Origin: Phormidium tenue FACHB-1052
GTDB taxonomy: Bacteria; Cyanobacteriota; Cyanobacteriia; Phormidesmidales; Phormidesmidaceae
Length of the DNA stretch: 64,000 bases
Direction of reading: 5' to 3'
NCBI RefSeq assembly: GCF_014696675.1
Contig: NZ_JACJQN010000005.1
Location: 1-64,000 of the forward strand
Shown: positions 3,801 to 48,660 of the stretch, piece by piece
Position numbering within the stretch: position 1 is the first letter of the stretch
Layout: each line of letters starts with the position of its first letter
Made by a program: the position numbers and the translations under genes
The notes under the pieces: model-generated
The model's database searches: none
Told to the model about the DNA's origin: nothing
The model's input: the letters and a program-made list of their open reading frames with translations, nothing else

Positions 3801-6171
3801 CTTCCGCAACGAGGGGCGTTTTCTGGCCGCTGACTACCAGGGCAACCCCAACAAGGAGTATGAGCAGTTCATTGAGTTGGGGGTAGATGGTTACTTCACC
3901 GACTTCCCTGGCACGGGTGACCTGGTGCGCGATCAAATTACCAGTGACTTCGTCCGCTCTCCCCAAAACCCCGAGGTGCAGGCCACCACTGAGTTCGAGA
4001 CGCTGACAGGCGGTGCCCCCATCGTGATCGGCCACCGGGGCGCATCGGGTGAGCGACCTGAGCACACGCTGGAGGCCTACAAGCTGGCGATCGCCCAGGG
4101 GGCAAACTTCATTGAGCCTGACCTGGTCGTCACCAAAGACGGCGTGCTGATCGCTCGCCACGAGCCCATGCTAGGGGTGGTGGCGCTGAATCCCGACGGC
4201 ACCATTCAGCTGGATGCCAGCGGCAACCCCGTGCTCAACAGCACCGACACCAGCACCGATGTTTACCTGCGGGCTGAGTTTGCCGATCGCCTGACGGTGA
4301 AAAACCTGGACGGCGTTCTGCGGGGCGGCTGGTTTGCCGAAGACTTTACCCTGGCGGAGGTCAAGCAGCTCAATGCGATCGAGCGGATTCCGGCCATCCG
4401 GGGTACCGAGTTCAACAACGATGGCCTGAAGGTGCCTACCCTGGCCGAGGTGATCGACCTGGTGCAAGAGGTCGAGGCGGAAACCGGTCGCAAGATCGGC
4501 CTCTATCCCGAAACCAAGCACCCCACCTTCTTTGAGCAGCAGGGCTACAACACCAGTGAGCTACTGGTCGAAACTCTGGTAGCGGCAGGGTTCACTGACC
4601 CCAGCCGCGTCTTCATTCAGTCGTTTGAGGTGGCAAACCTGAAAGCGCTGAACGACACCATCATGCCCGCCGCTGGCATCGACATTCCCCTGGTGCAGTT
4701 GTTTGGCGGCAGTGGTCAGCCCTACGACTTTGTGGTGGCTGGCGATGCTCGCACCTACACCGATCTGTCTACCCCGGCAGGCTTGGCAGAAATCGCTGTA
4801 TACGCGACGGGCATTGGCCCTAACAAGCAGCGCATTGTGCCGCTGAGTACGGTGGATGCCGATGGTAATGGTCAGCCCGACGACCTAAATGGCGATGGAG
4901 CGATTAGCGATGGCGATCGCGTTACCGGCACCCCCACCACCCTGATTGCCGACGCCCACGACGCCGGATTGCTGGTACACCTCTACACTCTGCGGAATGA
5001 GAGCGTCTTCCTCCCCGACAGCTACGAGGGCAATCCCATCAATGAATACAAGCAGTTCATTGAACTGGGGGTAGACGGCTTCTTCACCGACTTTCCCGGT
5101 ACCGGGTTTACCGCCCGCAGCACCTTCATCGAAGAGCCTGCGGTGGCCAACCTAAATCGCTCCCAGGGTTTTGAAGGCATGGCCTTTAGCCCCGATCGCA
5201 CCACCCTCTACCCAATGCTAGAGGGCACCGTCGTCGGCGACCCCGCTGGCTCGCTACGCATCTACGAATTTGATGTAGCCAGCGCTGCCTACGAGGGCCT
5301 GGTCGGCCTCTATCAGCTAGAATCGACCCGCCATGCGATCGGTGACTTCACCCCGATCAACACCAATGAGTTCCTCGTCATCGAGCGCGACAACAACCAA
5401 GGTGAAGCCGCAGCGTTCAAGAAGATCTTCAAGGTTGACTTCTCTGCGGTCAATAGCCAAGGCTTCGTCAAGAAAGAAGAAGTAGTCGATCTGCTGACCC
5501 TAAAGGATCCCAACGATCTCAACGGCGACGGCAGCACCACCTTCGACTTCCCCTTCCAGACCATCGAAGACGTGCTGGTGCTCGATGCCGACACCATTCT
5601 GGTGGCCAACGACAACAACTACCCCTTCTCGGTGGGCCGTCCCCCCGCAATCGACAACAACGAAATCATCGAGATCCAGCTCGACAAGCCGCTAAATCTC
5701 GATCCTCGTTTGGGGGTATCTGGGTTGTCTGAGGATGCGGCTGTTGCCGAACTCATCGACCTGACTGGGTTCGATCGCGCAGTCGCAGTCAATGTCACCC
5801 TCGATCGCGAAGCCGCCTTCGACAACGTGCTCAAGTTCTACGAGACCGATGCTCTGGGCAGAGTAGGCGGCCTACTGCCTGGTGAAGCAGGCTATGAAGC
5901 TGCGGCTGCCGCCAACCTGCTCGATGCTGAGCTGTTTGTCGGCAATAACACCGCTGCCGACCTCACACTCACGCTGGCAGGTGGCAAATACTACGCCCCG
6001 GCGTTGCTTATCGACGGTAGCTCTACTCATTTGGCCACCATCGATGATGCCGCCCTGGGCAGTGTACGGATTCAGCGCGACGGCAATGTTTGGAGCTTTG
6101 AAGACCACACCGACAACGACTTTAACGACTTAATCGTAACCCTCAACTCCGTTGCGCCAGTCGTTGCATAG
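802..6171 (+). CDS. Giant mosaic phosphatase: PhoX-like + phytase-like domain split by two GDPD domains + DUF4114
   Basis: This 1789-residue protein combines several phosphorus-releasing domains. Residues about 1-510 resemble PhoX/DUF839 (NHELSN, FTGEE). Residues about 515-690 are the first half of an 'esterase-like activity of phytase' domain (GFSGVQFAPGG, WIGDEFGPYLLHF), and its second half resumes at about 1443-1600 (GFEGMAFSPD, FLVIERDN). Between them lie two GDPD domains starting near residues 694 and 1073, each with the HRGASGE..PEHTLEAY and EPDLV.TKDGV signatures. Each GDPD copy carries an aspartate-rich DADGDG-like Ca2+-binding insert. The C-terminus (about 1665-1786) looks like DUF4114. 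No Sec or Tat signal is present, so export by a type I system is likely. The start follows an AGGAGA site. Candidate Pho boxes lie upstream and a terminator follows. The substrates are probably phosphomonoesters and glycerophosphodiesters outside the cell (inference). Confidence 0.93.
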   Translation: MAFDTTQPTQVSGLNGYTVDPLITIGDEIDGYLPPGIPDGMGAIALNANTIRLFVNHELSNTAGYAYTLESGAELAGARVSYFDIDKTTRTVVDAGLAYDTIYNRAGAIVDDATDLEFGGINRLCSAQLINANQFGESNGFADAIFFTGEETGGGSEFALDVATGELWAVPWLGRAAWESVTELDTGTTDKVALLIGDDREAAPLLLYVGEKNAAGDGSFLARNGLAQGKLYAWAPDSGIDSPDDEDIAPDPTGFNGTGNSQAGSWVELDYYRPDLASADGATGYDAQGFATQAQQDSLAYDVAGAFQFSRPEDVATNPADGTQAVLASTGRGSRFPEDNWGTTYKIDVEFNESGDPLTAQLDILYAGDDAGSGQFTGPDFGLRSPDNLDWSADGNIYIQEDRSTEIDPFGGASGEEASIWKLDPNSGDLTRIAQINRTTGVPDGQTDTAIGDVGNWESSGIIDVSTLFGEDPGELFLFNTQAHSLRGGIIDEAGLVQGGQISFLSDPAEITGFASLPADTFAEGPDAGGNDGTGAPISGNGRTGPFDGQPVQGFSGVQFAPGGDGSTFWFLSDNGFGAQTNSADYLLRIYQADPSLAGSEGGDGSVDIQGFVQLSDPNNLIPFDIVNEGTSDRLLTGADFDVESFVIDGNGEIWIGDEFGPYLLHFSTEGVLLDAPIATPNVNTLNTLNGQDPLVIGHRGASGELPEHTLEAYSLAIARGADFIEPDLVATKDGVLIARHEPILGGTTDVASRPEFADRQRSGTIDGVLYENEFFASDFTLAEIKTLRAIMPQGYRTDAFDGVFQIPTFEEVINLVKQVELDTGKKIGIYPETKHPTYHDDLGLSLEEPLLATLEATGFTDPSRIFIQSFEVSNLKELNTKTDIPLVQLLDAYDVALDGSLIYEDVNARPYDFSVAGDTRTYGDLQTAEGLAEIATYADGIGPWKRMIVSVEGVDADGDGAADDVNSDGAVNDADKTTTAPSTLIPDAHDAGLFVHAYTFRNEGRFLAADYQGNPNKEYEQFIELGVDGYFTDFPGTGDLVRDQITSDFVRSPQNPEVQATTEFETLTGGAPIVIGHRGASGERPEHTLEAYKLAIAQGANFIEPDLVVTKDGVLIARHEPMLGVVALNPDGTIQLDASGNPVLNSTDTSTDVYLRAEFADRLTVKNLDGVLRGGWFAEDFTLAEVKQLNAIERIPAIRGTEFNNDGLKVPTLAEVIDLVQEVEAETGRKIGLYPETKHPTFFEQQGYNTSELLVETLVAAGFTDPSRVFIQSFEVANLKALNDTIMPAAGIDIPLVQLFGGSGQPYDFVVAGDARTYTDLSTPAGLAEIAVYATGIGPNKQRIVPLSTVDADGNGQPDDLNGDGAISDGDRVTGTPTTLIADAHDAGLLVHLYTLRNESVFLPDSYEGNPINEYKQFIELGVDGFFTDFPGTGFTARSTFIEEPAVANLNRSQGFEGMAFSPDRTTLYPMLEGTVVGDPAGSLRIYEFDVASAAYEGLVGLYQLESTRHAIGDFTPINTNEFLVIERDNNQGEAAAFKKIFKVDFSAVNSQGFVKKEEVVDLLTLKDPNDLNGDGSTTFDFPFQTIEDVLVLDADTILVANDNNYPFSVGRPPAIDNNEIIEIQLDKPLNLDPRLGVSGLSEDAAVAELIDLTGFDRAVAVNVTLDREAAFDNVLKFYETDALGRVGGLLPGEAGYEAAAAANLLDAELFVGNNTAADLTLTLAGGKYYAPALLIDGSSTHLATIDDAALGSVRIQRDGNVWSFEDHTDNDFNDLIVTLNSVAPVVA

Positions 6172-6203
6172 TTGATGTTGACAGCGTGAAGTTAAGCCTT
6201 CTA

Positions 6204-6236
6204 CCCCTGCGTTTGGTTAAGCGCAGGGGTTTTCTT
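6204..6236 (+). terminator. Rho-independent terminator after the mosaic phosphatase
   Basis: CCCCTGCG (6204-6211) pairs perfectly with CGCAGGGG (6222-6229) across a 10-base loop, and TTTTCTT follows directly. It starts 33 bases after the stop codon. Confidence 0.85.
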
Positions 6237-6263
6237 ACAGCAAAAGAAGTCTGGAGCATTGTC

Positions 6264-6378
6264 CAGATGTAGGTCATGCTAGCTGCCCATATCCGGCCTG
6301 GTTCAGTAGTTTTTGGGGCATCTGAACATTCTCCTTCGTGGGCGACCCTCAGGAGTGTCAACTTTTTTAGGTCAGGTC
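6264..6378. repeat. Degenerate direct repeat, right copy
   Basis: Homologous to 205-321 in the same orientation (see that entry). It fills the space between the phosphatase terminator and the stop codon of the metallophosphoesterase gene. Relative to the left copy it has at least one indel, which closes the minus-strand frame. Confidence 0.55.
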
Positions 6379-7242
6379 TTAGCCGCTTAGGGGGAATCGG
6401 AGATGGTTCTGATTGAATGAGTCGGCTCCGCTGCTTTTTTGCCCATCGGAAAACCGATGAGGGCCATCAAAGTTACCGACAAAAACCGTATGGGAAACCA
6501 AACTACCATTTCCCCAGATATGGAGTTGATAGGCAGGGGGCTCCATGACAAACTGGCTGGCAGTATCGGGCTGTAGATCGAGGTAGCCTTGATGGGCCAG
6601 ACTAGGCTGGGTGCTAGCGATCGTGCCCGCCCAACGACGATACATCACCCGATGCAAATGCCCACAGCTAACTCGCTCGACCTGACCGTGCTGAGCAATC
6701 AAGGCGGCTAAAGCATCGCGGCCATCAAGCCACCGTCGATCCATCCAAGGAATGCCGGTTGTGAACGGAGGGTGATGCATAAAGATCAGAGTAGGGGCCT
6801 CAGGGGCTCTCACCAGTTGGGCCTCTAGCCACGCTAGCCGCTGAGCATCCAGCCTGCCCGATTTTTCCCCCGGCAGCGTGTTGTCTAGCATAATCAGGCG
6901 GATTGGATAGCCGTCTACGACATAGCTCAGATGATCGAGGGAGTTAGCCAGGTAGTGATGATCGGCAAATACCTGGCGTAGGTTTGTTCCCTGGTCATGG
7001 TTCCCAGGCATCAGATAAATTGGAGCGCGCAGGTTGGCCAGCATTGCTCTTAGCTGTTGATAGTCGGCCAGGGTGCCCTGCTGGACTAAATCGCCCGTCG
7101 CCACGACTAGATCGGGTTGGGGGTTGAGCTGATTGAGATGGGCGATCGCAGCCTGCACCAGGGAATTCGTATCCACCACGCCGTAGGCCAGTGCGCCTGC
7201 CGACTGCCCATGCAGATCGCTAATTTGAGCAATCAGGGTCAT
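6379..7242 (-). CDS. Calcineurin-like metallophosphoesterase (CpdA/Icc-type) of the phn cluster
   Basis: A 287-residue metallophosphoesterase with all metal-binding motifs: DLH near residue 9, GDLVQQG near 51, GNHD near 80, HHPPF near 156 and GHLH near 194. Its ATG overlaps the stop of the HD-oxygenase gene by four bases (ATGA), so the two are translationally coupled, and it is the last gene of phnM-phnM2-HD-MPE. C-P lyase pathways need a phosphodiesterase (PhnP in E. coli) to open 5-phosphoribosyl 1,2-cyclic phosphate. No phnP is visible here, so this enzyme may fill that step. That role is inference; action on cyclic nucleotides or glycerophosphodiesters is also possible. Confidence 0.92.
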   Translation of the reverse strand: MTLIAQISDLHGQSAGALAYGVVDTNSLVQAAIAHLNQLNPQPDLVVATGDLVQQGTLADYQQLRAMLANLRAPIYLMPGNHDQGTNLRQVFADHHYLANSLDHLSYVVDGYPIRLIMLDNTLPGEKSGRLDAQRLAWLEAQLVRAPEAPTLIFMHHPPFTTGIPWMDRRWLDGRDALAALIAQHGQVERVSCGHLHRVMYRRWAGTIASTQPSLAHQGYLDLQPDTASQFVMEPPAYQLHIWGNGSLVSHTVFVGNFDGPHRFSDGQKSSGADSFNQNHLRFPLSG

Positions 7243-7799
7243 CGCGAATCCACCAGTTGGCAGGCTTTCTGGAGGCTGGGTAGGAAATGCTCTAAATCTG
7301 GGGTGTCTTGGTTGGGCACTTTTGCCAAATCATCCCAGCGGCGCAGTTGTACGGCCTGTTTTGCATAGGGTTGCTGGATAAAGGCAGTGGCAGCAGCCGG
7401 TGAAAACACGCCGCCCTGAAGTTCTAGGCTCCGTCTAGAAGTCGCCGATAGAGAATCCCAATAAGTCTCATCCACGGCGCAGAGGTAGCGTTTGGCCTCA
7501 ACATGGAGCTGAATTGGCCGGGTGACAGCGGTGGGAAACAGCGGCGCTAAAACCGGGATGGCGCAGTGTTCATGGCGATCGTCAAGGCCGCGCAGGGCCG
7601 GATCATCCCCCAGGTGATGCACCAGATGCCCCAGATCGTGGAATAGGCAAGCGGCGATCATCTCAGCAGATTGATCGGCCTGCTCAGCCAGGATGGCACA
7701 CTGGAGGGCGTGGTCGAGTTGGCTAACCGCTTCGCCGCCGTATTGGGCCTGACCCCGTTGGCGATAGAGATCGAGCAGAGTGATGAGAGAGGGTGGCAT
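7239..7799 (-). CDS. PhnZ-like HD-domain oxygenase, phosphonate-degradation associated
   Basis: This 186-residue HD-domain protein resembles the 'phosphonate degradation HD-domain oxygenase' group that includes PhnZ. PhnZ uses a mixed-valent di-iron centre to cleave the C-P bond of 1-hydroxyphosphonates. The sequence shows Y20-x2-E23, the pair that in PhnZ (Y24, E27) gates the substrate, followed by H30, the HD pair H54-D55, H58, and H76. The usual partner PhnY, a 2-oxoglutarate hydroxylase, is not seen in the window. The gene lies 12 bases after phnM2 and overlaps the metallophosphoesterase by four bases. The oxygenase call is from family features; the substrate is unknown. Confidence 0.85.
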   Translation of the reverse strand: MPPSLITLLDLYRQRGQAQYGGEAVSQLDHALQCAILAEQADQSAEMIAACLFHDLGHLVHHLGDDPALRGLDDRHEHCAIPVLAPLFPTAVTRPIQLHVEAKRYLCAVDETYWDSLSATSRRSLELQGGVFSPAAATAFIQQPYAKQAVQLRRWDDLAKVPNQDTPDLEHFLPSLQKACQLVDSR

Positions 7800-7811
7800 G
7801 GGGCAGAAAAA

Positions 7812-8978
7812 TTAGAGGGATTGTTTGACCGGCAGACCGTTGATGTACACCGCCCGAATGGCACTGGGTAACGGGTCATTTGGAGTTAGCAGGAGAAAAT
7901 CGGCATCGTAGCCAGGGGCGATTTTGCCTTTGCGATCGCCAATTTTGGCCGCTTTAGCCGGGTATTCGGAAACGCACTTCCATGCCTGCTCAAAGGGCAT
8001 TAGCCCTTGTTCGGCCAGTAGAAACGGCGCGTGGAACAGCGAGGGGTAGTGATAGTCAGAACAGAGGCAGTCTAGAACCTGGGCTTGAGCGGCTTCGGCA
8101 ACACTCATATAGCCAACGTGGGAACCGCCCCGCACCAGGTTAGGGGCTCCCATCAAGACGGCGGCTCCATAGGCGCGGGATGCTTCTGCTAGCGGGATGG
8201 AGGCCGGAAATTCTGCGATCGCCACTCCCCGCTCTCGACTTTTCGCCACATCGGCTGCCGTCTCATCATCGTGGGAAGCTACTGGAATACCCAACTGATG
8301 ACAGCGCTGCACCAAGTCTTCAAACTGCGCCAGACCCTCCTCCTGACGGAGACAGGCAGCTTGCACCAGCGCTAAAATCTCGGCTTCGGACAGCTTCAGC
8401 CGTTGACGTAGCCCCTTCGTATAGCGCTGTAGCGTTTCCTCATCGATCGCAGGCGGGAGGTGGTTATTGAGAGAAAGCAGCGTGACTTTGCGAGTGTCTA
8501 GCCAGTGGCACAGTTCGTCATAGTCAGCGGTGTTGGCCTGCTCGTGGCGAATGTGAATGCGACTATCGACCCGCAGTCCATGATCAGGTGCCGAAATTTG
8601 GTTAATTAGCTGCCGCGCCATCTCTCGGCTACGCAGCCCCGGTTCAAAGGAGTCGGTAATGGAGTAGAAAAAGGTCGTAATTCCTGCTCCCAGCAAAGCC
8701 AGATCGTTTTCCACCAGGGCCATATCCAACGGCAGGTTGACCCCAGGCCGAGGGCAAATCATGCGTTCAAACGCATCGCCATGAATGTCAACAATACCGG
8801 GCAGCAGGTGCAGGCCGGTGACATCGATCGCCACATAGCCACTAGGCTTGGCTGTTTGATCGACGGCGACAAATTTGCCGTCTTCAACCAGCACCGTTGC
8901 CGCGTTTAGCCAGCCGGTAGGCGTCAACACCGTTGCGCCCTGGAGAGCAAGTTTGGGTGTAGAGAGGGGCTGTTTCAT
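7812..8978 (-). CDS. Second PhnM-like amidohydrolase
   Basis: This 388-residue protein is a divergent paralogue of PhnM, the alpha-D-ribose 1-methylphosphonate 5-triphosphate diphosphatase. It keeps the amidohydrolase metal motif as DIHGDAFERMICPRPG, the SHDDET motif, and MGAPNLVRGGSHVG and SDYHYPS near the C-terminus. The canonical PhnM motif HTDNFE is changed to HGDAFE. It lies 32 bases downstream of the canonical phnM (9011-10141) in the same operon. It may process a different ribose-triphosphate phosphonate or a related intermediate (inference). Confidence 0.9.
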   Translation of the reverse strand: MKQPLSTPKLALQGATVLTPTGWLNAATVLVEDGKFVAVDQTAKPSGYVAIDVTGLHLLPGIVDIHGDAFERMICPRPGVNLPLDMALVENDLALLGAGITTFFYSITDSFEPGLRSREMARQLINQISAPDHGLRVDSRIHIRHEQANTADYDELCHWLDTRKVTLLSLNNHLPPAIDEETLQRYTKGLRQRLKLSEAEILALVQAACLRQEEGLAQFEDLVQRCHQLGIPVASHDDETAADVAKSRERGVAIAEFPASIPLAEASRAYGAAVLMGAPNLVRGGSHVGYMSVAEAAQAQVLDCLCSDYHYPSLFHAPFLLAEQGLMPFEQAWKCVSEYPAKAAKIGDRKGKIAPGYDADFLLLTPNDPLPSAIRAVYINGLPVKQSL

Positions 8979-9010
8979 GGCAGAAGGACAGAGTAATTAG
9001 ACATTCGTTT

Positions 9011-10141
9011 TTAGGCGATGCGCTGGCCCTGACGGCGGACGGAGGTAAAGCGGGGCACAACGCCATCGTGGTGGACGGTGACAAAGTCAGCCCGTTTGCC
9101 AACTTCGAGACTACCGCGATCGCCATCCAGGCCAATGGCTTTGGCCGGGTTTAGGGTAAACAACTGCATAGCTTTGTATAGAGGCTGCTGCTGCGCGATT
9201 AGGAACATCGCCTGCAGCAAACTCTGGGGGACATAGTCAGACGAGATGATATCGACCAGGTCTCGCTCGATCAGCTCCATGGCGGAAACGTTGCCAGAAT
9301 GGGACTTGCCCAAGATCAAATTTGGCGCACCCATCAATACCTGGAGGCCGTGGCTGTGAGCTTCTTTAGCGGCATCGAGGGTGGTGGGGAACTCGGCAAT
9401 TTCGGCTCCGTCCTGTAAAGCCTCCTGCACATGCTCAGGGGTGGCATCGTCGTGGCTGGCGAGGCAAATCCCATGCTTCTGGGTCAGGTCTACGAGCCTG
9501 CGGCGGTTTTCGTCGGCATGGCGCTGCTGGGCTTCGATGCGGGCTTGAATGAAGCCTTCCATTTCATCCGCCCCCACGCCGTGTTTGCCCTGGTAATACT
9601 CTTTATACTTCTCGACCTGGGCAAACTGCCGCTGACCGGGGGTGTGATCCATCAGCGAAATTAGCGACAGTAGGGGATGCTCGGCGTAGGTTGCCGCCAC
9701 GTCAAACACCTGCTCGTAGCCCAGTTCACAGCGCAGGTGGAGACGGTGATCGACCGCAAAGCGCCCGTCAATTTGGCCCTGATGAATTGTGTTGATCATC
9801 GGGTCAAACTGGGTCATGCGCATGGAGGTCGGGGTGATGTCTCCAACGGCGATCGCATCGCAGACCGTGGTAATGCCAGCCGCCGCTAAGTCGCGATCGT
9901 GGTATACCGCTGCCACATCCATTGGCCAGCGCACCTTGGGCCGGGGCGACAGCCGCTGCTCAAAGTTATCGGTGTGCAGCTCGACCAATCCGGGCAGCAA
10001 GTAATCGCCGTCGCCGTTGTGCCCTTGGGAAACAACGCCGGGCTGCACCTCGGCAATCATGCCATCCCGCACAACTAGCGTACCGAGCACCTCTTCGTCA
10101 GGTAGTTGTAAGCGGTAGTTGGTAAAAATAGTTTCGGTCAT
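9011..10141 (-). CDS. phnM: Alpha-D-ribose 1-methylphosphonate 5-triphosphate diphosphatase
   Basis: The 376 residues match canonical PhnM along their whole length: LLPGLVELHTDNFEQRLSPR, RCELGYEQ, SLMDHTPGQRQF, a YYQGK motif, SHDDATPEHV, LMGAPNLILGKSHSGN and ISSDYVPQS. PhnM removes pyrophosphate from the triphosphate made by PhnGHIL to give the substrate of PhnJ. It is about 100 bases from phnL, and an operator-like site (10178-10189) lies 36 bases upstream of the ATG. So phnM, phnM2, HD and MPE may form their own transcription unit, controlled together with phnG-L. Confidence 0.96.
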   Translation of the reverse strand: MTETIFTNYRLQLPDEEVLGTLVVRDGMIAEVQPGVVSQGHNGDGDYLLPGLVELHTDNFEQRLSPRPKVRWPMDVAAVYHDRDLAAAGITTVCDAIAVGDITPTSMRMTQFDPMINTIHQGQIDGRFAVDHRLHLRCELGYEQVFDVAATYAEHPLLSLISLMDHTPGQRQFAQVEKYKEYYQGKHGVGADEMEGFIQARIEAQQRHADENRRRLVDLTQKHGICLASHDDATPEHVQEALQDGAEIAEFPTTLDAAKEAHSHGLQVLMGAPNLILGKSHSGNVSAMELIERDLVDIISSDYVPQSLLQAMFLIAQQQPLYKAMQLFTLNPAKAIGLDGDRGSLEVGKRADFVTVHHDGVVPRFTSVRRQGQRIA

Positions 10142-10177
10142 GGGATACGCAATAGGGGCAGAATGACATCAGATACA

Positions 10178-40252: not shown

Positions 40253-40558
40253 TGTCGAAAGGTTGCGATCGCAGATGCGGTTAAGCTAACAAGACTTATT
40301 CTTCATTGGCCATTCTAAAGCTATTCTTCTCTAGTCTCAAGCCCTTGCCTGTAGGGCACTGACTCAGTAGCAGAGACATCGGCGAAGCGCAAGGGTATTG
40401 CGACCATCCGCCACAGGGCTAAGCTAAAATGCGGCATTATCAAGAAGCGGTCGCATTAAGCGATACAATTCAACTTGACATCTCAATGCTCTGGGGCCAT
40501 CCGGTTGGAGTTGCCTAGGGATTTAGTTGAGATTTAATTTTTGGAGGTAAACAACCCT
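40253..40558. other. 306-bp divergent region between the TonB-like gene and futA
   Basis: It must hold promoters for both genes. A strong Shine-Dalgarno GGAGGT sits at 40543-40548 for futA. I could not assign a Fur box with confidence. Confidence 0.4.
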
Positions 40559-41632
40559 ATGAGATTAGGAAGACGTGCATTTTTAGGAGCCGGTGCTGCC
40601 GCCGCCGCTGTAACCGCAGGCTACCTGCGCCAGCGCCCTGCCAGCGCCCAGTTTGGCTTTCGCCGTGGCCCGGTAATTAATCTCTATTCTGCTCGCCACT
40701 ACGACACCGACGACCAGATCTACACTGGCTTCCGAGAAGCGACGGGCATTCGCGTCAACGTGGTTGAGGCCGAGGCCGACCAGTTGATCGAGCGCATCAA
40801 GAGCGAGGGCGAAAACAGCCCCGCCGACCTGCTTATGACCGTAGATGCTGGTCGCCTCTGGCGCGCTGAGCAAGAAGACATGTTCCAGCCGGTCACCTCA
40901 TCGATACTAAACGAGGCGATTCCCGAAAATCTGCGCCACCCCGACGGGCTGTGGTTTGGCCTGACCAAGCGGGCGCGGGTGCTGGTGTACAACAAAGACA
41001 CCGTTGACCCCGCTGAGCTATCGACCTACGAAGATCTGGCCGATCCCAAGTGGCGCGGGCGGATTCTGGTTCGCAGCTCGACCAATATTTATAACCAGTC
41101 CCTGGTTGGGTCGATGATTGCCGCCCACGGAGCCGAAGACACCGAAGAGTGGGCGCGGGGCCTGGTGGCCAACTTTGCCCGCGATCCTGAAGGGGGCGAC
41201 AGCGACCAGATCAAGGCCGCAGCGGCTGGGCTGGGCGATGTTGCCATCTCTAACACCTACTACTTTGCTCGCCTGGCCAAGTCTGACAAGGCCGAGGAAC
41301 AGGCGATCGCTGAAAAGATGGGCGTGTTTTTCCCCAACCAGGGCGATGGCGCTAACGGACGCGGCACCCACGTCAACATCAGCGGTGCCGGGTTGGTCAA
41401 GACTGCGCCCAATGCTGAGGCGGCGGTGAAGTTCCTGGAGTATCTGGCGAGCCCCGAGGCCCAGCGCATCTTTGCCAATAGCAACAACGAGTACCCCGTA
41501 GTGGCAGGCGTTGATGTTGACTCTGTGGTGGCAGGCTTTGGCGAATTTAAAGAAGACCCGCTGAATGCCTCGGTGTTTGGCAGCAACAACCCCGAAGCCC
41601 TGCGCATCACCGATCGCGCCGGTTGGAAGTAG
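40559..41632 (+). CDS. futA: Iron(III) ABC transporter substrate-binding protein FutA
   Basis: 357 residues from ATG 40559, chosen because GGAGGT lies 10 bases upstream and because it begins a Tat signal ([21 protein letters not shown]). Family motifs: [41 protein letters not shown], and [27 protein letters not shown]. The tyrosine residues typical of Fut iron binding are present. It captures Fe(III) in the periplasm for FutB. FutB is encoded about 5 kb away on the other strand; FutC is not in the window. Confidence 0.95.
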
Positions 41633-41737: not shown

Positions 41738-42012
41738 ACGGCCAAGCTCTGAGACTCAACTATGAGGGTGGGAGACTCAAGGCCGAGATCCTAAGACTCG
41801 ACGGTAAGGCGATCGCACCTCAATCCCCAAGATTTAAACCTCGGAAGCGAGGCCACGATTCTCACAGTTGAGACAAAAAGTCTCGACGGCGAGACTCACA
41901 CTCTCGCGGGTCAACATAGATAGACTCAAGCCTGAGTGTTTTAGCCTCGACGCTGAGTCTCAGCGCTTCGCCCTTGAGGATCAGAACCTCAAGCGGCTAG
42001 GGCCGAGCCTCG
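41738..42012. repeat. Degenerate tandem array with a 21-bp period
   Basis: A CTC core recurs at 41755, 41776, 41797, 41819, 41840, 41861, 41882, 41903, 41925, 41946, about 41967, 41988 and 42009: a 21-base step with two 22-base exceptions, 13 units in all. Most units read CTC-gAcGgc-GAG, a small inverted repeat. In one frame per segment the plus strand spells a heptapeptide repeat such as LDGETHT, LTVETKS, LDAESQR. The two 22-base steps and a stop break the frame. It overlaps the 3' end of the hypothetical gene at 41997. Confidence 0.75.
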
Positions 42013-42485
42013 GCCATCACGTCTACTTTCTCGGCTTTTTGACGCATAGACTTAAAGCGCTCGCCGAGCTGGGCGGCGACGGCTTTGAGACCGGGCTGAC
42101 GCTTGGCGGCGGCTTTGACATAGTCATAGACGCTGAGGCTGCTGGTCATGGCTTCGCTGCCGACGGCTAGTAGGGTGTCGTCAACCTTTTCGGTCATCTG
42201 GCGCAGGTTGAGGCGCAGTTCGCTCAGCACGGTGGCAAGTTGGTAGTCGCGGGCTAGCTCGGCGGTGTCGAAGCTGGCGGGCAAAATATCGGGGTTGGCC
42301 TGGGCGGCGGTGAGGCTATTGCTGACAAAGGCCAGGCTTTTATCGCCCATTTTGTAGAGGCGGCGACGCTCTTCGGCGGTGAGGTTGACCAAGAACGGCA
42401 TCTTTTGCTGAATGGTAGCCAGGGCAGCTTTGATTTCGTTGAGGTCTGCGGTAGACAGGTCGGCACTGATGTTTTGGTATGGCAT
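41997..42485 (-). CDS. Conserved hypothetical protein
   Basis: 162 residues from ATG 42485 (the frame extends to 42542). Features: ISADLSTADLNEIKAALATIQQKMPFLVNLT, RRLYKMGDKSLAF, LRQMTEKVDDTLLAVGSEAMTSSLSVYDYVKAAAK and a basic C-terminus. It is all-helical with no signal or membrane segment. I believe similar proteins occur in other cyanobacteria and in Bacteroidetes, but I know no function. Confidence 0.85.
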   Translation of the reverse strand: MPYQNISADLSTADLNEIKAALATIQQKMPFLVNLTAEERRRLYKMGDKSLAFVSNSLTAAQANPDILPASFDTAELARDYQLATVLSELRLNLRQMTEKVDDTLLAVGSEAMTSSLSVYDYVKAAAKRQPGLKAVAAQLGERFKSMRQKAEKVDVMAEARP

Positions 42486-42626: not shown

Positions 42627-42749
42627 CTATTCAATGCGATCGGGAATTTTGGGTTGGGCGGCTTGATAGTGGGTTTCGCAGAGCCAGAGGTAGTCGCCAG
42701 TGTAGGTCGCTACGGCTATAAAGTTTCCACATCTCTTCAAGCACCCCAT
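42627..42749 (-). CDS. Tiny cysteine-containing ORF overlapping the NACHT gene end
   Basis: A 40-residue frame: MGCLKRCGNFIAVATYTGDY followed by LWLCETHYQAAQPKIPDRIE. Its ATG (42749) lies 10 bases inside the 3' end of the NACHT gene in another frame, so it could be translated by coupling. C-x3-C and C-x2-H suggest a small zinc-binding fold. GAGAG lies just before the ATG. The amino-acid composition looks protein-like, but 40 residues can arise by chance. Confidence 0.35.
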   Translation of the reverse strand: MGCLKRCGNFIAVATYTGDYLWLCETHYQAAQPKIPDRIE

Positions 42750-45700
42750 TCTCTCAATAGAACATTCCTTCCTTCTGCCATCCATTGCTTTGCTTTTTTC
42801 TTGTCGTCGGTAAAAATCCTAAGGTGCTCCAGATGCTTTAAGGGGGAGAGGTCGCTCACCTGCGTTTGGGATAAGTGCAATTCACTAAGCTGTGCGAGGG
42901 TACTCAAGGGCGAGAGATCGATCACTTGAGTTTGATCCAAAGACAAGAAACTAAGCTGTGCGAGGGTACTCAAGGGTGAGAGGTCGCTCACCTGCGTTTG
43001 ATCCAAAGACAAGTTACTAAGCTGTGCGAGGGTACTCAAGGGTGAGAGATCGATCACTTGAGTTTGGTCCAAATACAATTCGCTAAGTTGTGCGAGGGTA
43101 CTTAAGGGCGAGAGGTCACTCACCTGCGTTTGGGATAAAGATAAGGTTTTGAGCTGTACGAGGGAACTCAAGGGCGAGAGGTCGCTCACCTGCGTTTGAT
43201 CCAAAGTCAAGTTACTGAGCTGCATGAGGGTACTCAAAGGCGAGAGGTCGCTCACCTGCGTTTGATTCAAAGACAAGTGACCCAGCTGCATGAGGGTACT
43301 CAAGGGCGAAAGGTCGCTCACCTGCGTTTGATCCAAAGACAAGTGACCCAGCTGCGTGAGGGTACTTAAGGGCGAGAGGTCGCTCACCTGCGTTTGATCC
43401 AAAGTCAAGTTACTGAGCTGCATGAGGGTACTCAAGGGCGAAAGGTCGCTCACCTGCCCTTGGGATAGGAACAAGTTACTGAGCTGCGTGAGGACACTCA
43501 AGGGCGAGAGGTCGCTCACCTGCATTTGGAATAAAAATAAGGAACTGAGTTGTGTAAGGGCACTTAATGGCGAGAGATCTTTCATCTGAATTCGGAATAA
43601 AAACAAGTAACTGAGCTGCGTGAGGACACTCAATGGTGAGAGACTGCTCACCTGCGTTTGGCTCAAAAATAAGTAATTAGCATGAGATAAAACTTGGGAT
43701 AGATAGATGTCACGATCAAAAACATTCCATCCTTGACCGAGCGCTTGACCTACTCTGAATTGATCTGACTCAAATGTTGCTTTTGCATACTCTGCCAAGG
43801 TCTCCATCGCGCTGCGAGTCCCTATTCTGATCAGAGCTTCAATACAATTACTTGCTTCCTCAACCGAATATGCAGCGTTATAGATTAAGAGAGGCACTAC
43901 TTCATTGCCTGCTCTCACTACCATAGCCACTTCATCGTCATCCTTAGGTGGCATCAGCAATTTTGCAGAAGCCAAAACTGAAGCACGAGTCTTGGGAGGA
44001 ACTGTTACCGCTGTTTCTAAACAAGCAACTGCCAACAAGTGTAAAAATTGGCAATCTTCAGGGTTGTTATTCCCGTGGGCAATCAAAAATTCTAAAAGCC
44101 TTTCGCATTCTCTAGGTCTAGCCAAGCCTGCTGCTGCAATGATAGCTTCGCGCCACTGATCATCTGAAGTCTTTTGCAGCAGTTCTTCCAAGCAGTCATC
44201 GCGCAAAATTGCCTCTGCAGCCAAATACTCTTGAAACGTGCGGTGGGCAAAGTCTATTTGACCCACTACAGGTTCACGTAGGAGCGCTGCTCGATCAACA
44301 AATAATTCTCGAATTTGCCTGCCAGTTACAGTTTCAGGTAGGCTTGTGTTTTTTAGTTCTAGCTGAAAATGGTTGTCTACCCGGTCAACCTCTAAGCTTG
44401 AAAGATTTAAGCGCATAAACTTTAAAGCTAGGCTGCGTAGCAGTTCTAGCTTTTGTGTTTCATTTAGCCCGACTTGATATGTTTCATCTAACGAGATTTC
44501 TCGTCCAACATCTCGCCGATTCAGTAGCATATCAATACATTCTTGGTAGAGTTGTAACCTCGCGCTTGGCAAGGTTTCTAGCCTCTCCCGATGTAGAGCG
44601 CAAATCATTGCACAGAGCAATGGTGTCGAGGCCAATCGCTGGAGTTCAGGTCGCTGTCGCAGCTGACGAATAAGCTTCTGTGCTGTTTGCTCAAGATTTT
44701 GCTCTAAATCCAGTGGTGAGTCGCCTAGCGCTTTATGCCATTGGGTTACAAACGCCTCTACCTTAGTTGGCGTCATTGGCTCTAGCATGAGATTTTTAAA
44801 GTCGTGAGTACCGAGCCAGTCTTCCCAGGCTTGCCAAACATCGCCCTCCGCAGTCTTTAGCCCAGACGGTCGAGAAGTGACAACATAGGTCGCGTAAGGA
44901 AAATCTCGTACCAAATCTTTTAAGGCTTCAAAAAAGTCTTCTCGGGCTTGCCTAGGCAACTCATCTACCCCATCAATGAGCACCAGCGCCTGTCCTCGAT
45001 CTAAATACTTGTGTACCCACCCCTTTGGCATCTGCGCTGCAATATTTTTAGCAATTAACGCCGGGAACTTTTCAGGGGGTGGAAACTCGTCCCCAATCAG
45101 ACTACGCAAGCGAACAAAAAACGGAATTTTAACATTCCAGTTTATGAGTTTTCCTTTAAAACTCTGGCTCGCTGCCCGCACTGCCAGCCATTGCATCAAA
45201 GTACTTTTACCTGCCCCCGCACCCCCACGGATCATTAGTCGCCGACAGTCACATATAGCCTCATCGACCTGGCTTAATACTCTCCTTTGCTCCCTGTCTG
45301 GCAATTCGCCATCTATATCGTGATGACCCGCTTTTAAGACCTTGGTCGCACTTTCTTCATCGTCGTTATCCACGATTCCACTCGCCGATAGCGTAACGTA
45401 AGCCATACTCAGGCTTTGCTGGCTCGTTAAACGATCCATGCGGGGCAGGCCAAACACCTCCAAACGATCTAGTTCGTCTCCCACCACCTTGCGATATCGT
45501 TCTACAAAGGCATCCTCTGCTTGAATCGCTAGAGCGCGCTCTAGCCCCAACTCTCTAGCGAGGGCTTCTAACCGCTGCAACATTTCGGCAGTTTTTGCTT
45601 GCTCATACCCCTCTACCGCAGGTGCAGCCTCAATCAATCGCCGACTCACCATGGCTATGGTCTGCTTATATATCGCCTGCTCAGCCGCTGAAAAATCGCG

Positions 45701-46087
45701 GTCTACCCCTGGATTTACCTCTATCAGGTGCTGCTCTAGCGTTGCTGCATCAAAATTCATGTCTGCTAGGCCTGCCTGAGTCAATCCAGCTGAAATTAAT
45801 GTTTGAGCTAGCCCCAACAAAATTGCATCACGGCTGTTTATTGTCACCTGCCTGTCGCGTCCCTTAAACAGCGGACGAATATCGTTCGCCATTTGCTGAG
45901 CAATTTTCGTCACCTCCGGTGATTTGCTAAACCCATCCGCTTCAAGCTTTAGCAAATCACGAGACACTGTACCCATGGTCTTGGGTATAACTGCATTAGC
46001 CACCTTCGATTTAACATCGAAAGCCGCCAATAACCCTTGTGCCAGAGGTGGCCCAACAACTTTGAGAACAAGCAAAGACGTTGACAT
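42737..46087 (-). CDS. NACHT-LRR protein (bacterial NLR-like, probable antiphage sensor)
   Basis: 1116 residues. Residues about 1-270 form a helical N-terminal domain (LVLKVVGPPLAQGLLAAF, RDFSAAEQAIYKQTIAMVSRRLIEA). A NACHT ATPase follows, with Walker A GGAGAGKSTLMQWLA near residue 288, Walker B ALVLIDGVDELP near 369, and ATYVVTSRPSG; FAHRTFQEYLAAEAIL lies in its C-terminal helical part. After a HEAT-like helical section (about 640-790) come 13 LRRs of 22 residues (797-1087) with consensus QLSxLxLDQTQVSDLSPLSTLx. Bacterial NACHT proteins have been shown to be antiphage NLR relatives; here the LRRs would be the sensor. No C-terminal effector is recognised. A toxin-antitoxin pair is divergent upstream. 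Confidence 0.92.
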   Translation of the reverse strand: MSTSLLVLKVVGPPLAQGLLAAFDVKSKVANAVIPKTMGTVSRDLLKLEADGFSKSPEVTKIAQQMANDIRPLFKGRDRQVTINSRDAILLGLAQTLISAGLTQAGLADMNFDAATLEQHLIEVNPGVDRDFSAAEQAIYKQTIAMVSRRLIEAAPAVEGYEQAKTAEMLQRLEALARELGLERALAIQAEDAFVERYRKVVGDELDRLEVFGLPRMDRLTSQQSLSMAYVTLSASGIVDNDDEESATKVLKAGHHDIDGELPDREQRRVLSQVDEAICDCRRLMIRGGAGAGKSTLMQWLAVRAASQSFKGKLINWNVKIPFFVRLRSLIGDEFPPPEKFPALIAKNIAAQMPKGWVHKYLDRGQALVLIDGVDELPRQAREDFFEALKDLVRDFPYATYVVTSRPSGLKTAEGDVWQAWEDWLGTHDFKNLMLEPMTPTKVEAFVTQWHKALGDSPLDLEQNLEQTAQKLIRQLRQRPELQRLASTPLLCAMICALHRERLETLPSARLQLYQECIDMLLNRRDVGREISLDETYQVGLNETQKLELLRSLALKFMRLNLSSLEVDRVDNHFQLELKNTSLPETVTGRQIRELFVDRAALLREPVVGQIDFAHRTFQEYLAAEAILRDDCLEELLQKTSDDQWREAIIAAAGLARPRECERLLEFLIAHGNNNPEDCQFLHLLAVACLETAVTVPPKTRASVLASAKLLMPPKDDDEVAMVVRAGNEVVPLLIYNAAYSVEEASNCIEALIRIGTRSAMETLAEYAKATFESDQFRVGQALGQGWNVFDRDIYLSQVLSHANYLFLSQTQVSSLSPLSVLTQLSYLFLFRIQMKDLSPLSALTQLSSLFLFQMQVSDLSPLSVLTQLSNLFLSQGQVSDLSPLSTLMQLSNLTLDQTQVSDLSPLSTLTQLGHLSLDQTQVSDLSPLSTLMQLGHLSLNQTQVSDLSPLSTLMQLSNLTLDQTQVSDLSPLSSLVQLKTLSLSQTQVSDLSPLSTLAQLSELYLDQTQVIDLSPLSTLAQLSNLSLDQTQVSDLSPLSTLAQLSFLSLDQTQVIDLSPLSTLAQLSELHLSQTQVSDLSPLKHLEHLRIFTDDKKKAKQWMAEGRNVLLREWGA
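42827..43684 (-). repeat. 13 tandem 66-bp repeats encoding LRRs
   Basis: 858 bp made of 13 units of 66 bp. The half encoding QVSDLSPLSTL is almost invariant at the DNA level, while the codons for the xxLxLxQ positions vary. Units near 43060-43450 are nearly identical, which indicates recent duplication or gene conversion. Copy number is likely to vary between strains. Confidence 0.9.
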
Positions 46088-46216: not shown

Positions 46217-46435
46217 ATGCCTGAACCGACCTCAGCCTTTCAAAAAGCCATTGATGCGGTCGAGTCTCTTTCCCTTCAAGATCAAGAGGCTGTGCTCACC
46301 CTGTTGCAAAAACGCATCGCAGACCAGCGCCGCAAAGAACTCAGCCAAAGCGTTACCGAAGTTCGTCACGAGTTTGCTCAAGGCAACGTTCAGTTCGGTT
46401 CAGTTGACGATTTCATGGCAGGTCTAGACGATTGA
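46217..46435 (+). CDS. Antitoxin of a RelE/YafQ-type pair
   Basis: 72 residues from ATG 46217; the frame extends further upstream but lacks a suitable start. SAFQKAIDAVESLSLQDQEAVLTLLQKRI is a helical start, and the C-terminus EVRHEFAQGNVQFGSVDDFM is typical of short antitoxins that wrap a RelE-fold toxin. It overlaps the toxin gene by four bases (TTGA). The NACHT gene starts 129 bases away on the other strand. Confidence 0.85.
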   Translation: MPEPTSAFQKAIDAVESLSLQDQEAVLTLLQKRIADQRRKELSQSVTEVRHEFAQGNVQFGSVDDFMAGLDD

Positions 46436-46716
46436 GACGCCTTGCCTGGACACCAAGATCGCAGCGGGCCTTCAAACGCCTGGTCAAGCGAAACCCACAA
46501 CTCAAACAGACCATCCGACAAACCCTAGAGCTGTTAGTTCGAGACCCCTTTGAGCCATCGTTGCGAACCCATAAGCTCTCTGGAAGCTTAGAAGATGTGT
46601 GGTCATGCTCGATCGATTACAAACTCCGCATCCTATTTGAATTTGTAGACGATCCAGAAATGCATGAGCAAGCCATTCTTTTGCTCAATCTCGGCTCACA
46701 CGACGAAGTGTACTGA
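46432..46716 (+). CDS. RelE/YafQ-family mRNA interferase toxin
   Basis: 94 residues starting at TTG 46432. Family features: RRLAWTPRSQRAFKRLVKRNPQLKQTI, LELLVRDPFEPSLRTHKLSGSLEDVWSCSIDYKLRILFEF and a C-terminal ILLLNLGSHDEVY. The toxin would cleave mRNA on the ribosome and be neutralised by the preceding antitoxin. The LxxHKLxG..W and RI-F residues for catalysis are present. Confidence 0.9.
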   Translation: MRRLAWTPRSQRAFKRLVKRNPQLKQTIRQTLELLVRDPFEPSLRTHKLSGSLEDVWSCSIDYKLRILFEFVDDPEMHEQAILLLNLGSHDEVY

Positions 46717-46736: not shown

Positions 46737-48398
46737 TCACTTCCCTTCGTTGGCGATCTGCTTGCTCAGCCACAGCACCGGCAGCAGCCCCACCAAAATG
46801 ATCGCCAGCGCCGGGGCCGAAGCCTCAATCAGCCGCTCATCGGCGGCATATTGATAAACCCGCACCGCCAGCGTGTCAAAATTAAACGGGCGAATAATCA
46901 GCGTCGCGGGCAGCTCCTTCATCACATCCACAAACACCAGCATGGTGGCCGTGAGCAAGCTACTACCCAGCAGCGGGCGATGAATTTTCATCAGCGTTTG
47001 GTTAGGGGTTTGCCCCAGACTGCGGGCCGCATCATCCAGCGAGGGCTTAATTTTGCCCAACCCCGCCTCGATCGCCCCAAAGCTCACCGCCAAAAACCGC
47101 ACCAGGTAGGCAAACAGCAGCGCAATAATCGTGCCGCTCAGCAGCAGCCCAGTCGAAAAGCCAAACGTCTGCCGCATCCAGGCATCGATCGCATTGTCAA
47201 ACTGCGCCAACGGAATCAGCGTGCCCACCGCAATCACCGCCCCCGGCACCGCGTAGCCCAGATTGGCCCCCTGCACCGACAGCTTGAGAAACGACGTGCC
47301 GTTGAGCCGCAGACCATAGGCCATCACCAGCGCCAGCAGCACCGCCAGCACCGCCGCCAGCACCGCCAGCACCAGGCTGTTAAATCCCAGCACCACAAAG
47401 TCGCCGTTGAGAGTGTCTTCGGCATTGCGAATTGTCATCCCCAGCAGCAGTCCGGTGGGGATGATCAGCCCCAGCAGCACCGGGGCAGCGCAGGCCAGCC
47501 AGGCCCCCACCGCCCTCAGCCCGCCCAGCCCATAGCGCGACTGCGAAATCGTGCGGGCCATGCCCTGGTAGTAGCGAGCCCGACGACGCGATCGCTGTTC
47601 CAGCACCACCAGCGCAAAGATAAACAGCAGCAGCACCGCCGACAGCTGCACCGCCGCCGGGCGATCGCCCATACCAAACCAGGTGCGATAGATGCCCGTG
47701 GTAAAGGTCGAGACGCTGAAGTAGGCCACCGTGCCAAAGTCGTTCAGGGTTTCCATGAGGGCCAGGGCGGTGCCAGCGGCGATCGCCGGTCGAGCCAGGG
47801 GCAGCGCCACCGACCGAAAGCTGCTCCAAGGGCCGCAGCCCAGACAGCGGCTGGCCTCCAGCGTCGCGGTTGACTGCTCCAGAAACGCCACCCGCGCCAG
47901 CAGATACACGTAAGGGTACAGCGTCAGGCTAAACAGCAAAATCGCCCCCTCAATCGAGCGAATGTTGGGAAACCAGTAGTCGGTGGCCTGCTGCCAGCCA
48001 AACAGGCCGCGCAGGGCCGTCTGCACCGGGCCAAAGTACTCCAGCGTGTCGGTATAGACGTAGGCGAGGATGTAGGTGGGAGCCGCCAACGGCAGCAGCA
48101 GCAGCCACTCAAACCAGCGCCGGCCCCAAAACTGGCAGGTGCTCACCAGCCAGGCGGTGCTCACCCCGATCGCCAGCACCCCCAGCCCCACCCCCACCAT
48201 CAGCATCAGCGAGTTGCGAATATATTCGGGCAGCACCGTCGCCGCCAGATGCCCCCAGGCATCGCTGGAGTTAGTAAACAGGCTGGCGAGAATGATTGCC
48301 ACCGGCAGCAGCATCACCAGGGCGATTAGCCCCACGCTCAGCGTCCAGCCGTCGGGCCGTGGTAGTGAGGCTTTCCAGGGGGCACCGAGGGATTTCAT
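46737..48398 (-). CDS. futB: Iron(III) ABC transporter permease FutB
   Basis: 553 residues from ATG 48398 (TTG 48407 adds three). It has about 12 membrane segments in two halves, each with an EAA-like loop: EASRCLGCGPWSSFRSVALPLARPAI and DDAARSLGQTPNQTLMKIHRPLL. The LPLAAPTYILAYVYTDTLEYFGPVQ segment is typical of FutB/FbpB. It carries Fe(III) across the inner membrane. Its partner futA is separated by the defence-like insert. Confidence 0.95.
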   Translation of the reverse strand: MKSLGAPWKASLPRPDGWTLSVGLIALVMLLPVAIILASLFTNSSDAWGHLAATVLPEYIRNSLMLMVGVGLGVLAIGVSTAWLVSTCQFWGRRWFEWLLLLPLAAPTYILAYVYTDTLEYFGPVQTALRGLFGWQQATDYWFPNIRSIEGAILLFSLTLYPYVYLLARVAFLEQSTATLEASRCLGCGPWSSFRSVALPLARPAIAAGTALALMETLNDFGTVAYFSVSTFTTGIYRTWFGMGDRPAAVQLSAVLLLFIFALVVLEQRSRRRARYYQGMARTISQSRYGLGGLRAVGAWLACAAPVLLGLIIPTGLLLGMTIRNAEDTLNGDFVVLGFNSLVLAVLAAVLAVLLALVMAYGLRLNGTSFLKLSVQGANLGYAVPGAVIAVGTLIPLAQFDNAIDAWMRQTFGFSTGLLLSGTIIALLFAYLVRFLAVSFGAIEAGLGKIKPSLDDAARSLGQTPNQTLMKIHRPLLGSSLLTATMLVFVDVMKELPATLIIRPFNFDTLAVRVYQYAADERLIEASAPALAIILVGLLPVLWLSKQIANEGK

Positions 48399-48660
48399 AA
48401 CCAGCAATTATTGCTACCCATTCCTTTTAGCACAGAACGAAACCCTGCCCACCCACCGCGTCAGGATTCAAAAGCCTTCTATAGCAAAAGAAGGACTTTG
48501 GGCTGATTGGGGCCGCACATAGCCCGAGTTTTCGTTACTGAAGTATGCTTTGCAGAGAGTTCCTGCGGGGCCAGGTTAGCCCCCGCCAAGCCACCCCAGG
48601 CCAGGGTGCGAATTTCGCCCCTCGCCCTCCAGAGCCCAACTGCCCGTTGCCGATCTGACT

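Follow-up and report, generated by a model that had tools for sequence, protein, structure and literature searches.

A cyanobacterial NACHT-LRR receptor with concertedly evolving sensor repeats at a site of receptor exchange

Bacterial proteins that combine a NACHT domain with leucine-rich repeats (LRRs) have already been reported and are called bona fide bacterial NOD-like receptors (NLRs), and those bacterial NACHT proteins that have been put to the test protect against DNA and RNA phages (PMC12169576). In fungi, NLRs with high internal conservation are known, namely the HNWD genes het-d and het-e and receptors with ankyrin (ANK) or tetratricopeptide repeats (TPR), and the HNWD genes of Podospora form an allorecognition system (PMC4986451, PMC12222747). 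Among NLRs with homogenised repeats, a sea urchin NLR is the one LRR case mentioned (PMC12222747). Here, we describe an NNH1-NACHT-LRR receptor gene located in a 64,000-nucleotide stretch of DNA (the window) from the cyanobacterium Phormidium tenue FACHB-1052 (contig NZ_JACJQN010000005.1, positions 1 to 64,000), see Table 1. The bacterial NACHT-LRR architecture and the fungal repeat regime are both known already; what appears to be new is this regime in a bacterial NACHT-LRR protein. In our literature search, which covered few subscription papers, no bacterial NACHT-LRR protein was described with homogenised repeats, changing copy number and a diversifying face.

The tested bacterial NACHT proteins and the window receptor share a central NACHT domain, an N-terminal domain and a C-terminal sensor. 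However, the C-termini of the tested proteins are SNaCT or NCH1, the effectors of clade 6 are nucleases, and none is described in the available part of that study with an LRR array under concerted evolution (PMC12169576). The fungal HNWD, ANK and TPR NLRs resemble the window receptor in having homogenised tandem sensor repeats that vary in number and evolve in concert, and with three of the five arrays described below they probably also share diversifying selection on the binding face, but they are eukaryotic, use WD40, ANK or TPR repeats with no LRR in fungi, and are known for allorecognition (PMC4986451, PMC12222747). NACHT proteins whose sensors are varied by a diversity-generating retroelement (DGR) are another bacterial case of a specially diversified C-terminal sensor, also in a multicellular bacterium (PMC10907252). 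There, however, a C-type lectin fold is varied by reverse transcription, while the window receptor appears to recombine LRR units and no template copy was found. Finally, bacterial LRR-Roc-COR proteins (Roco or AP-GTPases), which are described with rapidly evolving LRRs (PMC8195603), also join an LRR receptor to a nucleoside triphosphatase (NTPase) switch and even occupy the same chromosomal site in two congeners (G019 and G008; G000 is the genome of the window, 5.8 Mb in 36 contigs, and all other G numbers are relatives). These proteins have a GTPase instead of the NACHT domain and N-terminal LRRs, and are not homologous overall.

Judged from its domains, the window receptor is a bacterial NLR, in which the helical domain NNH1 at the N-terminus is followed by a NACHT NTPase switch and then by the LRR sensor. 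An earlier reading of the DNA alone (the sequence-only reading) had proposed a NACHT-LRR gene with an NLR-like architecture and 13 LRRs, and all of this was confirmed: the three Pfam domains are found, thirteen LSPL-anchored units of 22 residues are counted in the protein, and TRF detects 12.7 tandem copies of a 66-bp unit with a score of about 800. The N-terminal region, which that reading could not recognise, belongs to the named family NNH1, and no other NNH1 protein is found in the G000 genome. Both Walker motifs are invariant across five orthologues, i.e., the NTPase motifs are intact. AlphaFold2 models the LRR part as a regular strand-turn solenoid with a predicted local distance difference test score (pLDDT) mostly between 80 and 92, and the sole match in a PDB sequence search of the N-terminal and NACHT part is a weak one, to NLRC4 (E 0.0096).

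Two other identities were considered for the protein. Strong NCBIfam internalin matches exist, yet they are far below the cut-offs and reflect the shared LRR type, and an internalin does not fit a protein that carries NACHT and NNH1. A catalogued defence system of the STAND class (signal transduction ATPases with numerous domains), Avs or other, was rejected as PADLOC gives no match at E-values up to 0.01. The NACHT model itself matches 25 places in G000, a large STAND repertoire for 5.8 Mb.

The whole genomes of 59 relatives were searched for orthologues, and these were found only in G014, G018, G011 and G007, all of them congeners. NNH1 is found in 5 of the 28 genomes of the genus (G000 and 27 congeners); the named relatives that carry the receptor gene are the unclassified filamentous cyanobacteria CCP3 and CCT1. 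The orthologues are 79-84% identical overall, one being truncated by a contig end. Neither repeat number nor repeat sequence is fixed, which supports the repeat turnover of the sequence-only reading. The number goes from 6 to at least 15 among the five orthologues, with 13 units in the window, 12 in G014, 15 in G011 and 6 in G007. In G018, 12 units are found on one contig and a partial unit plus four more on another, which probably gives at least 16, provided that there is no overlap between the two contig ends.

The sequence-only reading had further claimed that the DNA is near-identical in the QVSDLSPLSTL half of the repeats and that the repeats were duplicated recently. For most of the window array this is not the case. 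Here, the units (capping unit excluded) are 62-94% identical in DNA, with a mean of 78%, and 55-95% identical in protein, with a mean of 75%; the QVSDLSPLS half exists in 10 DNA variants among 12 units, and the within-array synonymous divergence (dS) is 0.64. Only some unit pairs, e.g., 4/7 and 5/6 at 94% DNA identity, look recent. Both claims do apply to the G011 array, where the mean DNA identity is 91%, some units are identical over all 66 bases and dS is 0.05, and to the G007 array (dS 0.09). The HNWD-type threshold of more than 85% identity over at least 100 residues (PMC4986451) is not reached by the window array, given its mean unit identity of 75%, and G011, at about 85%, is borderline.

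A comparison of the five arrays (G000, G014, G011, G007 and G018) indicates that they are under concerted evolution. For 89% of the 57 units the nearest repeat is located within the same array, compared with 21% when the labels are shuffled (largest shuffled value 41%). Same-index repeats of two species are no closer to each other than random pairs, and no pair of arrays keeps a position-by-position orthology. It follows that the arrays were rebuilt after the receptor lineages had split, whereas the remainder of the protein was conserved, with 80-90% identity and a NACHT-core dN/dS (nonsynonymous to synonymous divergence) of 0.10-0.15 among orthologues. NNH1-NACHT proteins with LRR-like C-termini, as judged by eye, also exist outside the genus, in G257 and G086, and the repeats of the G257 protein (L094) look diverged. 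Thus, the architecture predates the genus, and homogenisation of the repeats does not follow from it automatically.

Change within the units is concentrated on the predicted concave face of the solenoid. In the AlphaFold2 model, positions 18-22 of each unit form a strand, e.g., residues 827-831 and 849-853, and from the LRR fold leucines 19 and 21 are predicted to face the core and positions 18, 20 and 22 to be exposed on the concave sheet. The variable positions of the unit are 17, 18, 20 and 22, and only 2 of 7315 four-position sets are equally variable, which supports the earlier claim of variability at positions that would face a ligand. The proportion of nonsynonymous differences at these four positions (face pN) was divided by the proportion of synonymous differences in the whole unit (pS), using simple pairwise counts among recombining repeats with a bootstrap over units, not a formal codon model. 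The ratio is 7.2 in G011 (bootstrap 4.7-13.3), 5.0 in G007 (3.5-7.4), 1.6 in G018 (1.3-1.9) and 1.0 in G014 (0.6-1.5), and for the remaining 18 positions of the unit it is 0.2-0.6 in the five arrays. This argues for diversifying selection on the face in G011, G007 and G018; the evidence is strong but not formal, because the counts are simple and the repeats recombine. In G000 and G014, the pattern reads as a constraint on the face that is at least fully relaxed.

Mutagenesis by a DGR was also considered. NNC codons are common at positions 18 and 22, a pattern that adenine mutagenesis could produce. DGR mutagenesis was nevertheless rejected, as the whole-genome DNA search for a template copy matched only the array itself; the search did not extend to reverse transcriptase genes. 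The constancy of the third base does not need a DGR, as it is expected after recent homogenisation.

The locus itself changes in two ways, by exchange of whole receptors and by exchange of alleles. All four orthologues (4 of the 27 congeners) are located at the same place beside futB. In G000, G011 and G014, the NACHT-LRR gene is found between futB and a substrate-binding-protein gene, and in G007 and G018 the site is shared on the futB side only. The receptor is replaced or absent elsewhere: G012 has 304 bp and no gene between the two flanks, LRR-Roc-COR proteins (PF08477, PF16095) take this place in G019 and G008, G021 has a 779-residue LRR protein, and G013 has several other genes, none of them LRR. 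The futB dS to G000 is only 0.20-0.24 in G012, G019, G008 and G021, and the contents of the site therefore change on a short time scale.

At the allele level, the flanks place G000 with G011 (dS 0.21-0.26) and G018 with G007 (dS 0.20-0.26). However, the NACHT cores of these flank-sister pairs have a dS of 0.77 and 0.73, respectively, and the closest cores are instead those of G000 and G014 (dS 0.48) and of G011 and G018 (dS 0.45). As the NACHT divergence contradicts the flank divergence, divergent receptor alleles have passed between species without a change of site, presumably via recombination in the flanks.

We suggest, with a probability of about 0.62, that the protein is a bacterial NLR that senses a variable ligand on its LRR face and triggers an NNH1 output, and whose sensor is diversified by repeat recombination, selection and exchange. 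The concave face of the solenoid would recognise a variable protein, most probably one made by a phage or some other mobile element. Binding would lead to nucleotide exchange and oligomerisation of NACHT, and the clustered NNH1 domains would then stop the growth of the infected cell or kill it. Recombination between 66-bp units would alter the copy number and spread unit types, selection would keep the scaffold and favour new residues at the face, and whole alleles as well as whole receptors are swapped between species at one chromosomal site. The ligand-binding step is backed by the pattern of change. NACHT oligomerisation, the NNH1 output and an anti-phage role would be expected by analogy with the phage-tested bacterial NACHT proteins (PMC12169576).

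Several observations weigh against this proposal. In the window array the face changes at the synonymous rate only (face pN to whole-unit pS 1.0, bootstrap 0.8-1.4), i.e., an excess of nonsynonymous change at the face is found in three of the five arrays and not in that of the window. Face codons offer few synonymous sites, and pairwise counting of recombining repeats is less than a formal codon-model test. The sample consists of four relatives with an orthologue, with one genome per species, and G018 breaks inside the array. The PADLOC models include no family matching the receptor at E-values up to 0.01. Further, the N-terminus and NACHT are poorly modelled by AlphaFold2 (pLDDT about 25-60), which leaves the effector step without structural support.

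The first-rank alternative is that the same machinery has another target, i.e., kin or non-kin filaments, a protein of a rival or a host protein modified by an invader, as for the fungal het-d/het-e NLRs, instead of a direct phage product. The closest evolutionary match is indeed found in fungi, in the HNWD genes with their sensors for HET-C variants (PMC12222747), the relatives of the organism are filamentous, and deep allele exchange between species fits any recognition locus under negative frequency-dependent selection. We nevertheless consider this unlikely, since phage defence is the role found for the bacterial NACHT proteins tested to date (PMC12169576) and restriction-modification systems are among the cargo at paralogous sites, discussed below.

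It is also conceivable that no adaptation is involved. The x-positions of the LRRs would then be unconstrained, the repeats would slip and convert mechanically, and the gene would encode an ordinary STAND protein with a drifting sensor. A face pN about equal to pS in G000 and G014 is what neutral sites would give, tandem repeats recombine anyway, and the distribution over 5 of 28 genomes is that of an accessory gene. Three results make drift quite improbable: face pN exceeds pS in G011, G007 and G018 with bootstrap ranges above 1, the gene is not decaying, given the strong purifying selection on the NACHT core and its intact motifs, and the diverged-looking LRRs of the distant L094 protein speak against automatic homogenisation. 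That the differences in repeat number are short-read assembly artefacts is very hard to believe even though the G018 contig ends inside the array, the G007 assembly has 550 contigs and such errors are documented in fungal NLR repeats (PMC12222747), because the array is spanned by long contigs in G014 (1.38 Mb, 12 units), G000 (267 kb, 13 units) and G011 (217 kb, 15 units), and because the results on concerted evolution and on the variable face would stand with other unit numbers too.

Table 1. The receptor gene, its domains and the surrounding features in the window.
Feature	Position (strand)	Extent	Description
NNH1-NACHT-LRR receptor gene	42737..46087 (-)	1116 aa	Single intact open reading frame; Pfam NNH1, NACHT, LRR_4; four orthologues
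NNH1 (NACHT N-terminal Helical domain 1)	45545..45961 (-)	residues 43-181	PF22733, E 2e-20; putative effector/signalling part
NACHT NTPase	44729..45244 (-)	residues 282-453	PF05729, E 8e-18, above cut-off
Walker A, GGAGAGKST	45200-45226 (-)	residues 288-296	Within NACHT
Walker B, LVLIDGVDEL	within 44729..45244 (-)		Within NACHT
LRR sensor array	42803..43660 (-)	residues 810-1095	13 units of 22 aa (66 bp); LRR_4, E 6e-26
futB-like ABC (ATP-binding cassette) permease	46737..48407 (-)		Conserved left flank of exchange site; in 25/28 genomes of genus
Substrate-binding-protein gene	40541..41632 (+)		Resembles the iron ABC type; conserved right flank of exchange site
Toxin-antitoxin pair	46217..46716 (+)		Antitoxin 46217-46435; RelE/YafQ-like toxin 46432-46716; PF15738, E 2e-7; TIGR02385, E 2e-9
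p181	41997..42485 (-)	162 aa	Next gene, same strand as receptor; start MPYQNIS (conserved); predicted all-helical
p181 paralogues in G000	C36:75462; C1:76645; C32:162325

The toxin-antitoxin pair next to the receptor is probably not part of the receptor system. It is also found at the receptor site in G007 and G018. An operon of the receptor with a RelE-type toxin is ruled out, as the genes are divergent and the pair is absent in G011 and G014. At the G008 site, an antitoxin remnant and a VapBC-like pair are found beside the Roco gene.

The neighbouring gene p181 marks sites of exchange. It has no Pfam family, and its predicted structure (pLDDT 70) has no fold match in the PDB with E below 1. 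Relatives of p181 were examined at 31 places, nearly all within the genus and mainly at five chromosomal sites, so these are not 31 independent cases. The neighbour is a NACHT or NB-ARC STAND gene at 15 places, a restriction-modification or DNA-methyltransferase gene at 6 and LRR-Roc-COR at 2, with none of these at the remaining 8. The chance expectation of a NACHT gene per 10-kb stretch is well below 1/10, a rough value derived from the 25 matches in 5.8 Mb and not from random control loci. The swapped neighbours include NACHT-LRR, LRR-Roc-COR, NACHT-HEAT, NACHT-pentapeptide, NACHT-GUN4, NB-ARC-TPR and restriction-modification.

Within one site, p181 hardly varies between genomes, whereas its neighbour does; p181 is 99% identical in G000, G011 and G019 despite their different receptors. 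As, in addition, G014, G007 and G018 have the receptor without p181 at the site, an obligate partnership of the two is ruled out. p181 may still have a role as a partner or as a landing site. It can be speculated, although we regard it as doubtful, that p181 is the shared partner or landing-site gene of a receptor-exchange system at five or more sites, which together with the recombining LRR arrays would provide an exchangeable receptor repertoire.

Some further neighbours of p181 paralogues were observed. In G000, a SMEK-NB-ARC-APAF1_C-TPR protein of 1278 residues adjoins a paralogue (L058, G000:C36:70000-82000; 6312-10148, minus strand), and at the matching glycogen-debranching site G019 and G021 have a metallophosphoesterase-NACHT-LRR gene (L056, L057). 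A Trypsin-NB-ARC-TPR protein adjoins the paralogue in L083 (G008:C8:81500-92000; 5875-8853, minus strand), and the protease is missing from the NB-ARC-TPR proteins that congeners carry at the corresponding site (L081, L082, L084, L064). In L066 (G024:C455:22500-33500; 2852-5266, plus strand), the neighbour is a NACHT-GUN4 fusion (GUN4 E 5e-31); in other contexts, GUN4 is known to bind porphyrins.

The usual view of bacterial NLRs is that the phage proteins they sense are conserved ones. The turnover of the binding face between sister species, together with the exchange of alleles and neighbours at one site, suggests that bacteria may also run the arms-race mode of plant R and fungal het genes. 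With five natural arrays on one conserved core, the question of ligand specificity becomes directly testable.

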